Shown here one piece after another: positions 26,028 through 62,169 of a DNA stretch of 64,000 nucleotides; position 1 is the first letter of the stretch; every line of letters begins with the position of its first letter. Source of the stretch: Levilactobacillus fuyuanensis. Lineage in GTDB: Bacteria > Bacillota > Bacilli > Lactobacillales > Lactobacillaceae. The stretch is from assembly GCF_003946395.1 (NCBI RefSeq), contig NZ_RHNZ01000006.1, forward strand, positions 116,356 through 180,355, in the 5' to 3' direction. A program made the translations under genes and the position numbers. The notes under the pieces were generated by a model. It worked only from the letters and a program-made list of their open reading frames with translations, ran no database searches and was not told where the DNA came from.

Positions 26028-26068
26028 GGAGTTTACGTCAAAATTAAGCTACGCAAAAAGCAACGTCT

Positions 26069-26179
26069 CATCTTCTGCATACCAGACTATACTGTCGGTT
26101 TCGGAGTTGCACCGAATCAACCGCTCGCGCGGGTCGCGGACTTTACCGCCGGTCGGGAATTACACCCTGCCCTGAAGAT
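26069..26179 (-). promoter_or_regulatory. FMN riboswitch (RFN element)
   Basis: The minus strand shows the conserved RFN blocks in order: TTCAGGGCAGGGTG, ATTCCCGACCGGCGGT, AGTCCGCGA, TTGATTCGGTGCAACTCCG, AACCGACAGTATAGTC, and a closing GAAGATGAGA that pairs with the start. It senses flavin mononucleotide. The downstream terminator indicates transcriptional control of ribU. Confidence 0.95.
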
Positions 26180-26243
26180 GAACCATAAATTTTTAGTACA
26201 CCTTTAATGTACTAAACGAACCAACGTCTGTCAACGATTTACC

Positions 26244-52290: not shown

Positions 52291-52791
52291 TCACCCTGTT
52301 CTGGCACCCAGTAGCTGACCGACAATGCCTAAACCTACCAGAATTCGCCCCTGGTTAATCAACAAGCGTTGAACGAGCGGAGAGTTTCTCCTACTCATGT
52401 GAAAAACATGAACTTCTTGCGGTGGCACATACGCCAACATTAGGCCCGCCACGGTGCAAATCAGACCGGCTCGCCCCGACGGACTGGCCAATGCAGCGGC
52501 ATCTAGCGCTTGCGGCAATAGGAGTAAAATACCCGCGTAGATGGTAAAGACGGCATTCAGATCTAACAACAAGTTATCCCGTCTGTCCCACGCCGTCTGC
52601 TTGAGAACTAAGGCCAGCAATACCAGACTTAATGCCAGCAGCGTAAAAACAATCAACACCTGTAGCGACCGATTCGGTTGGATCGACCGCCAGCTAACAT
52701 TTAACACTTGAAGAATCCAGGCTAGACACACCAATAACCGGCCCAGATTGGCGTAAACGGCTAGCTTTCGTTGCGAGTAATTAGGCAGCAT
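52291..52791 (-). CDS. Unknown integral membrane protein
   Basis: About 166 residues with four hydrophobic segments (near 15-32, 45-65, 82-100 and 110-128) and a charged C-terminal part containing MSRRNSPLVQRLLINQGRILVG. No family is recognised. ATG 52791 follows AGGGGGAGG; the upstream open part up to 52911 has no binding site. It lies between glyS and dnaG, a spot without this gene in many lactobacilli. Confidence 0.7.
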   Translation of the reverse strand: MLPNYSQRKLAVYANLGRLLVCLAWILQVLNVSWRSIQPNRSLQVLIVFTLLALSLVLLALVLKQTAWDRRDNLLLDLNAVFTIYAGILLLLPQALDAAALASPSGRAGLICTVAGLMLAYVPPQEVHVFHMSRRNSPLVQRLLINQGRILVGLGIVGQLLGARTG

Positions 52792-52894
52792 TAACCCTCC
52801 CCCTTTTCTCAACGACTGTACCCCCTGTATAATCGCACATTTTTCAAGTTCTAGCGACCAGAATACCCCCCGTTTGTTCACGAATGGTGGACAA

Positions 52895-52929
52895 GAAAAA
52901 GCCAGCTCCAATTAATCGGAGCTGGCTTC
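52895..52929 (-). terminator. Terminator of glyQS
   Basis: On minus, AAGCCAGCTCC and GGAGCTGGCTT pair perfectly around GATTAATT, followed by TTTC. Confidence 0.9.
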
Positions 52930-56048: not shown

Positions 56049-56265
56049 AAAAAAATCCCTACGAGAATTCACTAAGGCAAATTCACGTAGGGACGAATTT
56101 TAATTTCGCGGTTCCACCCTACTTCTAGTCAATGACTAGCAGCTTACTTGGAAACGACTCCGAATGTGCCAACTCACGCTGGATTGGATTCGGCTTCCAC
56201 TACCCCGAACTCGCTAAACCAATGACACCATGACTCTCATTCATCATAATCGACTTATTTAACTG
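56049..56265 (-). promoter_or_regulatory. Glycine T-box riboswitch of glyQS
   Basis: The minus strand carries the T-box GGGTGGAACCGCG (56107-56119), a stem I region with AGCGAG and GGGGTAGTGGAA, and a candidate GGC specifier (56170-56168). The terminator TCCCTACG.../CGTAGGGA with seven T (56049-56093) competes with the antiterminator. Uncharged glycine tRNA should allow readthrough into glyQS. Confidence 0.92.
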
Positions 56266-56300: not shown

Positions 56301-56317
56301 TGTGTTTCGTACATTTA

Positions 56318-58384
56318 TTACCGGGTTTTATGTTTATTTAAGCTGGCCTCTTCTTTCGCTAGATGTGCCTCCAGATCGAGATATTCACGAATATACTTGA
56401 ATGGAAATGGAATCACCGTATAGCGATTGAAGCGAACGAAATCAACCTGTAAGAGGGATTCAAAAGCTTGAAAGATTGCCTGGATATCTGCCTTAGGCCG
56501 AGAGCTGTTCAGAACTTCAATTTGCTTGAGGGGAATAGCCCGTGCTTGTTTTCCCTTAATCAACTGATGATTGCCCACAAAATAATAGTGCCGTCCCTGC
56601 AACTCCAGCAGGCCCATCCCATACGTGCCGGCCCAGTAGGCATCAAACCGTTTTTGACGAACCGGAATATGCAACCAAATACCTGTATCTTCGAAAAATT
56701 GGTTATTAAAGGCTTGCATAAGTTTTGTTTTCCAATTGAGTTTGAGCACAGTATTAGCCTGCCGGACCGTCAGTGTGGCCTGATCAAGTGTCCTTAATTT
56801 TTGAACGAGCTGTTCGCGCCCGGTTTCGTCAACGGTCACAGTTGCCTGTGCAGCAGTGATGAGCTCACTACGTGAAAGTCTATTTTCACCATCAGCTGCG
56901 ACCAAGTGTGCCTTTAACTTGGCGCTATCGGGCACAGTAATTAGGTACGTACCATAAATGATAAAAAGGTTTGTGTCACTCTGAATGGCGCCCACCAAGT
57001 AACTGTGTCTACGCGTCGATGACGCCCAAATCTGGTGGGCCGTCTTCAGAAGTTCAGTATTCGCCACATCAGACTCCCTAAAAATCCCTTTTTCAAAGGA
57101 CAACTTTCCGGTAGCAGAGACCGTTAAACGGGTGACGCGAATAAGCGATTCTGATTTCTTGTCGGCCAAATTATCCAGCATTAGGTATCGAAATTGTGAC
57201 GCAGCGGATATCTCCACCTCTGAGGGAATCTGTAGCTGTGCGGTCATCACTTCTCGTTTAATCCCCAACTGATACAACATCATTTGAAATGCCGTATCGT
57301 CCAACAAATCCCACTTTTCATCCTTCAACATCAGTTTTGAAAAATTGGTCAAGGTCAGATGTTGAACGACCCGCTTACCAGAACCACAAATATAATGACT
57401 GTCATCCAAGTCCGCGACAACTTGAATATTCAAACCATCGACTGGCTGCTTGCCTACCGTACTACTTATTTTGAGTTCCTTGAACCGCGAACTCTGGACC
57501 GTCTTTGCTTGCAAAAACTGTGTCATTTTAAGGACATCCGGTTGTTCATAATTAGCAAAAAAGTGAAGCTGATTTTCACCTAACACCTGCCATACCTGAC
57601 TGGTTGACGACAGCTTAGGTCGCTGATAATAGGCTAATGGTACCTCGCACGGTGTTGGAAACATTTTAAAGTACTCGGGAAATTGCTCACCTAAGCCAGT
57701 AATCAAATCATTCATAATTCCCAATTTTGTTTTCTCAAACTGATCTAGTTCTTCTACCGATAAGAAGGGCGTCAAGTTTCGATGGTTCTTGATGCCACCT
57801 ACTTTGAATAAGGGTTGCCCATTACTCTTGGGCAGCCATTTAAAACAACCATCCACCAATCCAAATCCCTGTTTATCCAGCGTCTTTTTGAACGTCTCAG
57901 TACGTAATCGCAAGACGTGATTCTTGACTTCAACTTTAACGGCCACCTGAAAGTTCCCTCTTGCCGACCATTTTGGTACCAGATACAGGTCGCTAGTTGC
58001 GTAGTCATTTCTATAACTACCGTTAGTATCTACCTGCCCCTGTTTCATCTGTTTGATGAGTAGCATCAGTAACATGTCTGTAGAAATTCCAGTCGTAATT
58101 GCCTGATCAAAAGTAAGAACCGTTTGCTTGAGCGCTTTGACTTCAGTCAGTGGTGCCGTTCTTTTACGCAAGGACACCAAATAGCGAAAACTGGTTTTAC
58201 CATCTGATAAAGGTTCCTTTCCTAAACTTTTAATAGCTAAGACCGCATTCTGTTCGGACCAGTGTGCTATTTCCCCTGGTCGCGTAGTCTCCACGACAAC
58301 CAATCGGATATGCTGATCAAACCCCACTTTATCGAACTCATACTCCACATAATTCGTTTTGACTAGCCCATGATCATCACCCAT
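56318..58384 (-). CDS. Unknown protein, possible PIWI-like partner of the helicase-nuclease
   Basis: A 688-residue soluble protein of no recognised family. Seen directly: two weakly conserved-looking stretches, DGLNIQVVADLDD followed by VVQHLTLTNF (residues 316-348) and a C-terminal VRFNRYTVIPFPFKYIREYL (650-669). The latter recalls the Arg-x-Pro-x-Pro-x-x-Tyr end of PIWI domains and the former the MID/PIWI junction of some bacterial pPIWI proteins; this is inference from pattern memory. A complete DEDX catalytic tetrad is not apparent. Its ATG overlaps the helicase stop by 8 bases with GGGAGAG upstream, so the two are coupled. Confidence 0.55.
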   Translation of the reverse strand: MGDDHGLVKTNYVEYEFDKVGFDQHIRLVVVETTRPGEIAHWSEQNAVLAIKSLGKEPLSDGKTSFRYLVSLRKRTAPLTEVKALKQTVLTFDQAITTGISTDMLLMLLIKQMKQGQVDTNGSYRNDYATSDLYLVPKWSARGNFQVAVKVEVKNHVLRLRTETFKKTLDKQGFGLVDGCFKWLPKSNGQPLFKVGGIKNHRNLTPFLSVEELDQFEKTKLGIMNDLITGLGEQFPEYFKMFPTPCEVPLAYYQRPKLSSTSQVWQVLGENQLHFFANYEQPDVLKMTQFLQAKTVQSSRFKELKISSTVGKQPVDGLNIQVVADLDDSHYICGSGKRVVQHLTLTNFSKLMLKDEKWDLLDDTAFQMMLYQLGIKREVMTAQLQIPSEVEISAASQFRYLMLDNLADKKSESLIRVTRLTVSATGKLSFEKGIFRESDVANTELLKTAHQIWASSTRRHSYLVGAIQSDTNLFIIYGTYLITVPDSAKLKAHLVAADGENRLSRSELITAAQATVTVDETGREQLVQKLRTLDQATLTVRQANTVLKLNWKTKLMQAFNNQFFEDTGIWLHIPVRQKRFDAYWAGTYGMGLLELQGRHYYFVGNHQLIKGKQARAIPLKQIEVLNSSRPKADIQAIFQAFESLLQVDFVRFNRYTVIPFPFKYIREYLDLEAHLAKEEASLNKHKTR

Positions 58385-61300
58385 TTAAGAACTCTCCCAC
58401 CCTTCGTTGCTCTGCCACCGTTAACGCAAATTTACCATCCCGGTCCAGCAAAAATGGGACCTCCATAACTCGCCCGTTCACTAATTCCTGTTGAATGAAG
58501 TTCTGCGACCCTGCTGGCACAATTAAATTGACCATTAACACCCGCCAATCTGACTGTCCCGTTCGTCGACTGATCTCATCTAATTTATCCATGACATGTT
58601 GTCGTTCTGAGGCCACCTCGCGTTGATGAGGCTGCCGCCAATTCTTGAGATCAATCAAAACGTGGTTAGCTGTTTGAAAGTCAAAAAGTTCATGATTTAA
58701 TTGCTTCAAGTCGTATAGCTGGGTTGACCAATACTTTTCAATCAAAAATTTTCCGCATTTTTCGCCCAGAATCCCTTGATAACTGTCGAATTGAACTGGA
58801 TTAAGAATATAATCCAGCACCTTCCAAGATACTGGCCATTGATTGGCCTCAAAAAGTTCCCGCAAGTCAGGATTCTTGGAAATAATTGACAATCCAGCCG
58901 TTTCTGCCGAAATTTCCACATTTCCTTTATCATCTGATGGAAAGGTAAAATCATCTCTCTCGCGTTGGACGCGATAGCTCACTGATTTCAGATCCAAATA
59001 AGAAAATTCCGACCGGATCTGATGACTGTCATATTGATGGGCCGTCATCGTTGGATATTTTAATAGTGTCTCGCGATATGTTTGAAAATACCCGGCCGCG
59101 GCAACCGAGGTTTGCAATTGGCCGACCATTCGTAAAACTGCGTCCTTCGTTTCCTGCGTCTGATTCCGGAACCTGATTCGTCGCGTATGTGCTGCTGTTG
59201 GTATGATATGTTTTTTCTGTAACTGATGGTCGCGAATCGCTTGCGCAACTGGCCCTAACTGATAATCCTGCATCATTGTGACATTAAAATAATCAATCAC
59301 ACCAGTCCCTAACAAAACCATGGTCTCCGGCACCTTATTAAATGCCCGGTCCAACCGCCCAACTGCCTGCAAAATAAGCCGTGTATGCGCGCCAACGTAG
59401 CTGATAGTGTCTCGAAATTGACGAACTGGTTGCCCATTGCTCTGCTTGCGCGCATACTTTGCCATCTGCGCTAAATTAATCTCACCATTGTCCACGAGCC
59501 CTGCTAATTCATAATAGCCTGTGAGCCATTCTTTACGATTATTAGGTCTAGCCTGAGCAGGAATCTGGGTAAATATTTGGGTAACGCGTCCCAAATAAAT
59601 ACCAGCAATATCCACCATTTGACGCCGCTCGTCGTCAGCCGATACTGCTTTTGGTGCAATATCGATGAGTTGCGCGCTTTCTACGTTGTCCACGTAATAC
59701 TGTAGATTTTGCCCAACCCCCAGAGTGGCGTAACTGCTCAGCAAGTACACTCTAGTTGCTTTAACCGCCGGCAAATCTAACGCCTCATCCACTTGTTTTT
59801 TAACAGCCAAATGTTGAGACGATAACTTCTTAGCAATCATTCGTATCTGTGGGCGTGAGTTTTCCGTCGCACAAAGGATGGCAACCAACTTCTCCCACAC
59901 CTGCTCTATAAATTTCCGATCCATGACTAAATGACGAATATCGTCATCTTCTTTTGGCAGGATACTCTGCAGCCCTAAAAATGTTGGTAGTTTCTTGTTA
60001 CCTAAAAAACAGACGAAACTATCGAATAATTCTAAATAACGCAACTGAATATACTGATATTCTTTAGGATTATCTTTCTTCTGAAAATGCTGATGAATCT
60101 GGGTCATCGTCTGTTTAACAAATTGCTCCAAGTTTTTTAAGTTCTCGCCTTGCTCCGACGACAGTTTCAACTCCTGTAAACGTGCTTGAATTAAATCACG
60201 CATACAGTGTCCACCCTCACTAGTCGCAGCCTGTGATGTCGTTTCCAAAACCTTAACTGTCCCGCCATTTTTACGATAGCGCCGACTAACGTCAAAACTT
60301 TCCTTAATCGCTTCCGGTAAATTTTCGAGACCATAAAGCAATCGTTCTCCCAGCTGCTCTCGTAAAAAATTAAAATCAAAATTACTGAGCACCGTTTCAA
60401 CATCGACTGTTGCCGACATTCCCAAAACCATCCCCCGCTTCACGAGCTTCAAGAGAAACTTTTCCGGAGTCGTCTGAACTGTGGCAATTTCAATCTGCGT
60501 TCGATTTAAATGATCGTCACTATCTGTTAAAGAGACCAACTGTAAGCCATAGCGCTGCAGATGACGGCCGTAATAATTTTCAAACTTAATCTTAGCAACC
60601 TCATGTCGGCGCCCACCAAGCTGCTGAAACATCGCCGTTATAATATTCTTGGCATCTTGTGACAGCCATAACGTGTCACAAACCGTTCGCAGAGCACTCT
60701 CTAACTGCAATTGATTGTCTAAGTCTTCACGCTGTCCGTTGATCTGAAGTTGATAGAGTTCTGCCCACTTTCCCATTAAAGATGTGAACGTCTCTAAGAA
60801 GCACCCAATCTGCTGCACCATTTCATAAAAGTGGAGATCATGAATTTTGGGTTTCAGATTGGTCAAAATCACCTTTTTTTCTTCCGGATTATCTTGACTC
60901 CACCAAGCATGACTACTGGTTATTGTTAAGCTCGATAGATTGAAGATGAAATTTGTCTTTGCTGCCGAGTTAACTGTTTTATAGTCCTCAGTTAACTTAT
61001 ACTTTTGATCCAGATAATTGACACGTTGTTTTAATTGACTAAACCGTTGCTTCTGTCGAAGAATTGCCATAATATCCGCTGGTCGTCTCTTCTGAAGATT
61101 AGTCGTCGCCGCGTGAATTTCTCGAAAAAGCGCTAAAAAATCTATCGGTAATCGCAAACCACCATCAATGATTTGATCACTCAGAATGCGCTTCATTTCA
61201 TCGATTTCGTCCAACACAATCAAGGAATCACCGAGTTCCTCATCACGACTAATCGTGATCGACTGTGAACCGAAAAATGATTGATAGCTCCTCGTAAACT

Positions 61301-61988
61301 TGGCCCACGTCAGAAGTACCAATTGGTGTTGGTTTAAATTAATTTCTGGAAAATACTGATTGAGATAATGGGCAGCAGGTGTCTCATCAGCGGCAACATA
61401 AGTACAAAAACGGACCCGATTCCCATGATCCAACGGCACATCGAGTCCAAGCTCATCAGCTAATACCCCAATTAGTGCCCCCTTAAACTCAGTAAAAGCT
61501 TGCGCCATATTTTGGTAATCCTTGATTCGTCCGCCGCTTAAAACTTGATCCGGCTGATTATGAAAACGTTGGTAATACGTCTCTAATCGCTCTAGGACCC
61601 GTGAAAGTTCCTCAGATCGTAAACTCGCTGGAATATCGTGTCGATGATTTAAAACAATGGCAATCGTTTCCTCTAACGACCGCAGAACTGCTAACGTTCG
61701 ATAGAAATATTGCTGACGTGTCTCCGTAGACGTAAAAGCCCCATTCTCTGCCACGTATTTAGCGAGTAGTGTTTTGCCAAAAGTCTCCGGATAGAGATTA
61801 TTCTTCTTTGTGGCGACAAAATATGCGCGAAACTTTGGATTCTCGGCAACACGTTTACATAGGTAATTAATAACCCCAAACGTTTTTCCACTACCTGTTG
61901 GTGCAGGAACCGTCACGAGTGCCCCTGGTTGCTCGGTGGTTATCATATCGTAAGCCGGTTTCAATATCTCAGAAAATTTCAGACCCAT
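58377..61988 (-). CDS. Large SF2 helicase with C-terminal nuclease-like domain
   Basis: The product is about 1203 residues. Helicase motifs: Walker A VPAPTGSGKTFGV (about 27-39), II VLDEIDEMKRI (about 258), III LGMSATVDVE (about 522), V-like SSYATLGVGQNL (about 751) and VI LQAVGRLDRAF (about 873). Residues 1060-1120 hold FDSYQGILGEKCGKFLIEKYW and then FDFQTANHVLIDLKNWR, which fits a PD-(D/E)xK fold (Asp, Asp-x-Lys). A Fe-S cysteine cluster of DinG/XPD type is not seen. ATG 61988 is chosen (GGGAG 12 bases upstream, weak); ATG 62015 is possible. Likely acts on nucleic acid with the overlapping downstream protein. Confidence 0.75.
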   Translation of the reverse strand: MGLKFSEILKPAYDMITTEQPGALVTVPAPTGSGKTFGVINYLCKRVAENPKFRAYFVATKKNNLYPETFGKTLLAKYVAENGAFTSTETRQQYFYRTLAVLRSLEETIAIVLNHRHDIPASLRSEELSRVLERLETYYQRFHNQPDQVLSGGRIKDYQNMAQAFTEFKGALIGVLADELGLDVPLDHGNRVRFCTYVAADETPAAHYLNQYFPEINLNQHQLVLLTWAKFTRSYQSFFGSQSITISRDEELGDSLIVLDEIDEMKRILSDQIIDGGLRLPIDFLALFREIHAATTNLQKRRPADIMAILRQKQRFSQLKQRVNYLDQKYKLTEDYKTVNSAAKTNFIFNLSSLTITSSHAWWSQDNPEEKKVILTNLKPKIHDLHFYEMVQQIGCFLETFTSLMGKWAELYQLQINGQREDLDNQLQLESALRTVCDTLWLSQDAKNIITAMFQQLGGRRHEVAKIKFENYYGRHLQRYGLQLVSLTDSDDHLNRTQIEIATVQTTPEKFLLKLVKRGMVLGMSATVDVETVLSNFDFNFLREQLGERLLYGLENLPEAIKESFDVSRRYRKNGGTVKVLETTSQAATSEGGHCMRDLIQARLQELKLSSEQGENLKNLEQFVKQTMTQIHQHFQKKDNPKEYQYIQLRYLELFDSFVCFLGNKKLPTFLGLQSILPKEDDDIRHLVMDRKFIEQVWEKLVAILCATENSRPQIRMIAKKLSSQHLAVKKQVDEALDLPAVKATRVYLLSSYATLGVGQNLQYYVDNVESAQLIDIAPKAVSADDERRQMVDIAGIYLGRVTQIFTQIPAQARPNNRKEWLTGYYELAGLVDNGEINLAQMAKYARKQSNGQPVRQFRDTISYVGAHTRLILQAVGRLDRAFNKVPETMVLLGTGVIDYFNVTMMQDYQLGPVAQAIRDHQLQKKHIIPTAAHTRRIRFRNQTQETKDAVLRMVGQLQTSVAAAGYFQTYRETLLKYPTMTAHQYDSHQIRSEFSYLDLKSVSYRVQRERDDFTFPSDDKGNVEISAETAGLSIISKNPDLRELFEANQWPVSWKVLDYILNPVQFDSYQGILGEKCGKFLIEKYWSTQLYDLKQLNHELFDFQTANHVLIDLKNWRQPHQREVASERQHVMDKLDEISRRTGQSDWRVLMVNLIVPAGSQNFIQQELVNGRVMEVPFLLDRDGKFALTVAEQRRVGEFLNG

Positions 61989-62169
61989 GTATTCTGTCAG
62001 CTCCCAGCACAGCATTTCTTTCTAAACTAGCAAACAATGGGTTGATTTACAATCTCCTTTACACAATTTGTACAATGTTTACCGACATTTTACTGGAAAG
62101 CCATCTCATTCAAATTTTTACGCGAGTCAGACTCTGCAACATGACGCCATCTCAATTAGCAATTTCCAC

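Follow-up and report, generated by a model that had tools for sequence, protein, structure and literature searches.

A DdmDE-type gene pair beside glyQS in Levilactobacillus fuyuanensis, most likely directed against plasmids

The DNA studied here, which we call the window, is a stretch of 64,000 nucleotides from Levilactobacillus fuyuanensis (contig NZ_RHNZ01000006.1, positions 116,356 to 180,355). On its minus strand, two overlapping genes encode proteins of 1212 and 688 amino acids, and we put the probability at about 0.93 that they are a DdmDE pair, most likely guarding this Levilactobacillus against plasmids. DdmDE is known from published work to eliminate plasmids (PMC12409362), and by analogy the present copy would act in the same way. 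The pair is a further member of that published anti-plasmid system, to which its insertion site is added as an observation. The original prediction, made from the DNA letters, had seen a candidate undescribed defence system. It was right in kind, as this is a two-gene, defence-type cassette with a helicase fused to a nuclease, which matches DdmD, but the claim of novelty does not hold: both proteins match a named system, directed against plasmids, of which L. casei members have been solved.

The larger protein is encoded by the ddmD homologue (58377..62015, minus strand) and joins a superfamily 2 (SF2)-type helicase to a PD-(D/E)XK-type nuclease at its C terminus. It matches the PADLOC DdmD model (E 1.7e-27) and, over residues 31-1212, the solved L. 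casei DdmD (PDB 9ix4; E 1.8e-139), which is also recovered from the PDB with a family profile. We aligned 22 DdmD-type sequences, including two fragments and the distant DdmD-like protein of genome G340, and counted a residue as invariant when it is shared by all rows reaching the site. The invariant helicase residues are K44 (in TGSGKT, 40-45), D269-E270 (DEID), A535 of SAT, and Q883, A884, G886, R887 and R890 in QAVGRLDR; those of the nuclease are E1085, E1109, D1112, D1122 and K1124. A separate 16-row alignment agrees with these assignments, and the nuclease residues are the same in L. casei DdmD. Motif names follow the description of ApsA (PMC11096173) and common usage for SF2 helicases and PD-(D/E)XK nucleases. 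The helicase and nuclease residues of the window DdmD are intact. A further PDB match in the nuclease-residue comparison, 9e5c, was taken as chance. The nearest named relative is from L. hammesii (81%), the sole locus to come from the scan of genome contigs.

The partner is encoded by the ddmE homologue (56318..58384, minus strand). It matches the PADLOC DdmE model, and it matches L. casei DdmE both as a single sequence (E 6.7e-22) and, over its whole length, as a family profile (E 3.6e-210); with that profile V. cholerae DdmE is found at E about 4e-12, and a match at the bottom of the results, 9dt9, was taken as chance. In a fold search with a predicted model, the DdmE structures 9ixm_B and 9iw3 (L. 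casei) and 8u3k (V. cholerae) come out on top, followed by Ago/Piwi proteins, which suggests that the protein would adopt the DdmE fold. In a slicing Argonaute family the acidic tetrad is expected to be kept. Here, no aspartate is invariant among either 19 or 23 DdmE homologues, and for this reason the Argonaute-like window protein is predicted to be catalytically inactive; one glutamate, E667, is invariant (19 sequences), and only columns 325, 359, 378, 444 and 667 are acidic in at least 70% of the 23. V. cholerae DdmE has been published as inactive (PMC12409362). The nearest named relative of the window DdmE is from L. parabrevis (87%), and protein searches reach close relatives only, with six matches for the window protein, the identical six for the A1 profile and five for the DdmE of genome G009.

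Several observations weigh against this assignment, or against the functional picture attached to it. As a single sequence, the window DdmE matches V. cholerae DdmE weakly (E about 0.09). The predicted model is of moderate quality only (mean predicted local distance difference test score, 72.1; predicted template modeling score, 0.48), superposition on DdmE structures leaves a root mean square deviation of about 9-10 A, and the structural alignments with L. casei DdmE show 19-20% identity. Assessment of the slicer residues relied on conservation only, and the 11 nearer DdmE homologues share five invariant aspartates (3, 103, 119, 328 and 359) along with two that are almost invariant (D486 and D633). 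The point at which the window's branch joins differs between the DdmD and DdmE trees, and the sequence itself reveals neither a source of guides nor a target.

The distribution of the two genes is that of a unit. Among 35 genomes of the genus, ddmD is found in 10 and ddmE in the identical 10, at identities down to 43% (DdmD) and 34% (DdmE), and because both frames are conserved in the same 10 genomes they are real far beyond chance. The genes are adjacent in nine of these; in the remaining genome, G010, each sits at the end of its own contig. Across a wider sample of the family, the DdmD profile matches 24 of 397 genomes, from nine of 40 genera, and none of 14 controls, so this is not a single core gene of most lactobacilli, which would have spoken against the original prediction. 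The count of 24 is a lower bound, as two genomes positive with the window protein (G001 and G008), which may or may not have been in the sample, are outside it. Sixteen positive genomes lie outside the genus; 15 of their loci were compared, leaving out a weak partial match in G244, and a DdmE-type neighbor is present in all but that of G340. In six of the 15 loci (G158, G342, G327, G261, G044 and G082, or loci L052, L057, L062, L063, L064 and L066) the frame of ddmD or ddmE is split, which suggests that the system has been lost repeatedly or that the sequences contain errors.

Both proteins have diverged strongly beside conserved neighbors. Between the window and six other copies (G014, G016, G029, G009, G025 and G002), identity is 87% for DnaG and 88-90% for GlyS, versus 47-49% for DdmD and 36-38% for DdmE; for the nearest copy, in G010, the values are 96, 95, 81 and 74%, respectively. 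Other neighboring cargo, namely a major facilitator superfamily (MFS) transporter (74-92%) and a MarR regulator (62-74%), is, where compared, also less conserved than the housekeeping genes, and part of the divergence therefore belongs to the site. Across 21 genomes, pairwise identities of DdmD and DdmE are correlated with r = 0.988, a value that partly reflects genome relatedness and was reached in none of 2000 label permutations. The correlation supports the view that the pair travels together; it does not prove contact between the proteins. In the DdmD tree, the 10 Levilactobacillus copies group together (100/100), as do, within them, the eight copies at glyQ (98/97), a topology more readily explained by one arrival at glyQ with later losses than by repeated replacement. 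All 10 copies likewise cluster in the DdmE tree (100/99), but there G000 and G010 are placed with G001 and G008 (89/82), a conflict that makes any account of descent at the locus provisional.

How far do these data leave room for other explanations? That the cassette is a distinct helicase-plus-partner system against phages, not described before, could be argued from the database searches: neither Pfam nor NCBIfam has a family above its cut-off for the cassette proteins, the partner lacks a Pfam family even at E up to 1 (the original prediction had listed it as unrecognized, correctly), and the five DdmE homologues that come with source names are all annotated as "hypothetical protein," with the UniRef label "DUF2357 domain-containing" added for one. 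The near-full-length DdmD match and the whole-length DdmE profile match to the solved L. casei proteins refute this idea, and we give it almost no weight. Scarcely more probable is an ApsAB-type system, a helicase-nuclease with ApsB in place of DdmE. The ApsA motifs DE, SAT, QAVGR..R and D..DxK do recur in the window DdmD, and the ApsA and DdmD family is described as a continuum (PMC11096173), but sequence and fold both tie the partner to DdmE, and a pattern with limited spacings did not find the ApsB motif Y-x3-K..QG..K in it. Among 23 DdmE-type proteins, one (that of G237) matched the loose pattern. The likeness to pPIWI_RE modules that had been proposed holds in principle, as both combine a PIWI-type protein with a helicase and a nuclease. 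The pPIWI_RE modules have a separate nuclease gene, three or more genes in all and another PIWI family, whereas here there are two genes only, with the nuclease fused to the helicase, and the cassette is not such a module.

Two further explanations accept the family but not the role. The cassette could be a decaying remnant without function, as might be read from the split frames outside the genus, where sequencing errors are possible, and from the absence of the pair in 25 of the 35 genus genomes. Both frames in the window are intact, however, and the conserved active-site residues of DdmD are present, so that decay is very improbable. Alternatively, the main target may not be small plasmids, and the pair may act chiefly on the DNA of phages or conjugative elements. 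The rapid divergence of both proteins beside conserved neighbors would suit an arms race with any invader, and this explanation, although unlikely, is the strongest of the four competing with a DdmDE pair directed against plasmids. Against it, the published activities of DdmDE and the related ApsAB are against plasmids (PMC12409362, PMC11096173).

The G340 locus deserves separate mention. Contig G340:C3 (locus L065, 4324-12327) encodes a 1474-residue DdmD-like helicase-nuclease with conserved DE, QALGR and D..DxK residues, which matches the PADLOC DdmD model in the genome search (E 5.5e-9) and no family in hmmscan at E up to 0.001. Upstream of it is a DUF3800 gene. The helicase gene is followed by one encoding 777 residues, for which hmmsearch --max with the DdmE profile gives no more than a marginal match (E 0.0016 and 2.9 bits, with 9.6 bits for the best domain); the ApsB motif was not found in it by the pattern as searched. 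This locus is possibly ApsAB-like or a third branch of the family.

If the Levilactobacillus pair works like its relatives from V. cholerae and L. casei, the following sequence of events may be envisaged. DdmE, Argonaute-like and predicted to be inactive, would hold a short single-stranded DNA guide and pair it with plasmid DNA. It would then recruit DdmD out of an autoinhibited dimer, and DdmD would load on the displaced (non-target) strand, move 5'-to-3' and cut, which would result in plasmid loss. For the known DdmDE, the guide, the recruitment from an autoinhibited DdmD dimer, the 5'-to-3' translocation and the cutting have been described (PMC12409362). In the papers and structures consulted, the DdmDE systems studied in depth are that of V. 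cholerae and one pair from L. casei. Levilactobacillus offers a natural series of intact, divergent pairs, mostly at one locus, together with sister species free of ddmDE, which would serve comparisons of the ways in which DdmE obtains its guides and the two partners remain matched to each other. DdmDE may also help explain strains that are poorly transformable by plasmids. Among the papers listed by our literature searches on DdmDE and on Argonautes in Levilactobacillus, an incomplete survey, none concerned this Levilactobacillus locus.

The L. casei pair (PDB 9ix4, 9iw3 and 9ixm; Huang et al. 2024 Cell Res, as cited in PMC12409362) is the closest of the known systems. Its chains are of similar length (1192 and 715 residues), homology extends over most of both proteins, and its DdmE is the closest fold match to that of the window. 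They differ in the low DdmE identity given above and in that, within the set of treed sequences, from which the L. casei protein is absent, the copies from Levilactobacillus make up a branch of their own. Sequence similarity to V. cholerae DdmDE (PDB 8u3k, 9bgk and 9ezy) is weak, and there the genes lie on an island beside other defense systems (PMC12409362), whereas here they lie between glyQS and an MFS/MarR pair. E. coli ApsAB is likewise directed against plasmids, and it shares the broad helicase-nuclease family and an Argonaute-like partner, but ApsA is larger, with its nuclease lysine at position 1435, and ApsB has a MID-type motif (PMC11096173) that was not found in the window DdmE. In one sentence of PMC12904381 the names DdmD and DdmE are swapped; we follow the structural records.

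Within the genus, the interval between glyQ and recO is variable. The cassette had been expected to sit where relatives usually carry recO and era. This is partly borne out: the first open reading frame (ORF) upstream of glyQ in the 35 genomes is recO in nine, and in a tenth (G005) recO follows a small opposite ORF, but 16 genomes have other cargo in this first place and eight have ddmE, and one genome (G019) is unreadable at a contig end. RecO with an Era-like GTPase was Pfam-confirmed in one genome. The interval holds nothing, an MFS/MarR pair, an aldo-keto reductase, a BspA-type leucine-rich-repeat surface protein, an ABC-type ATPase set or ddmDE; cargo types were Pfam-confirmed on one or two examples each, and the ATPase set was read by eye. 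All 35 genomes have recO. For six of the eight glyQ-site copies (G014, G016, G029, G009, G025 and G010) it can be seen past ddmD without leaving the contig, and in the others (G000 and G002) the contig ends before recO. In the window genome recO is on another contig, as the window ends at its contig's end. The GlyQ of G019 is 99-100% identical over the compared part, and this genome has no DdmD or DdmE match. It is possible, but in our judgment doubtful, that chromosomal exchange takes place in the glyQ-recO interval, with DdmDE pairs gained, lost and replaced there, and that the strong joint divergence at this single locus marks pairs able to recognize or process different plasmids.

The ddmDE genes of G001 and G008 lie away from glyQ. 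Near them we observed a SWIM-domain ORF in G001 (PADLOC PDC-S62, 2.2e-20) and an ATPase ORF in G008 (mad3, 2.7e-22), the pair of ORFs at L073 946-2667 and L072 4047-5507, respectively. Both PADLOC-positive flanking ORFs lie near the two Levilactobacillus copies away from glyQ. The scan covered 10 proteins, namely three genes of the G340 locus and seven flanking ORFs of five ddmDE loci (three of G001 and one each of G008, G349, G230 and G235), and the two matches among seven come from a sample too small and hand-picked to show enrichment of defense genes.

In the window itself, the ORF coordinates confirm the two predicted frames and their 8-base overlap (58377..58384, minus strand), across which the genes may be translationally coupled; in homologous pairs, mechanically called ORFs share 8-50 bases. 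The order, ddmD then ddmE, is the two-gene operon layout of DdmDE. Pfam identifies the neighbors as GlyQ and GlyS downstream and an MFS transporter and MarR regulator upstream. The host genome (2.72 Mb, 54 contigs) has a single copy of each gene. The left edge of the cassette lies at 56301..56311, where similarity to ddmDE-free relatives stops, 7-17 bases before the ddmE stop codon. In the five such relatives that keep the MFS pair, alignments stop at 56309 (G028, 279/295 identical), 56311 (G022, 264/285) and 56301 (G031, G032 and G027; 231/260, 229/260 and 233/262), and only two genes lie between this breakpoint and the MFS gene. The right edge could not be placed: in four of the five the alignment restarts only within the MFS gene, and on that side of G022 no alignment is longer than 9 bases.

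Counts of promoter-like sites (16 versus 10.2 expected; standard deviation, 3.2) and terminator-like sites (6 versus 5.8) were not used as evidence; the best promoter match (56300-56272, minus strand) suits glyQS. Just outside the cassette lies the glyQS T-box leader (56086..56256, minus strand; Rfam RF00230, E 2.2e-12), whose score of 63.2 bits falls short of the gathering score, 93. Elsewhere, the window contains a flavin mononucleotide (FMN) riboswitch (26066-26183, minus strand; E 3.8e-25) and, between glyS and dnaG, a 206-residue ORF without a Pfam family (52291-52911, minus strand), homologues of which occupy the same place in five of the seven other genomes in which this stretch was compared.

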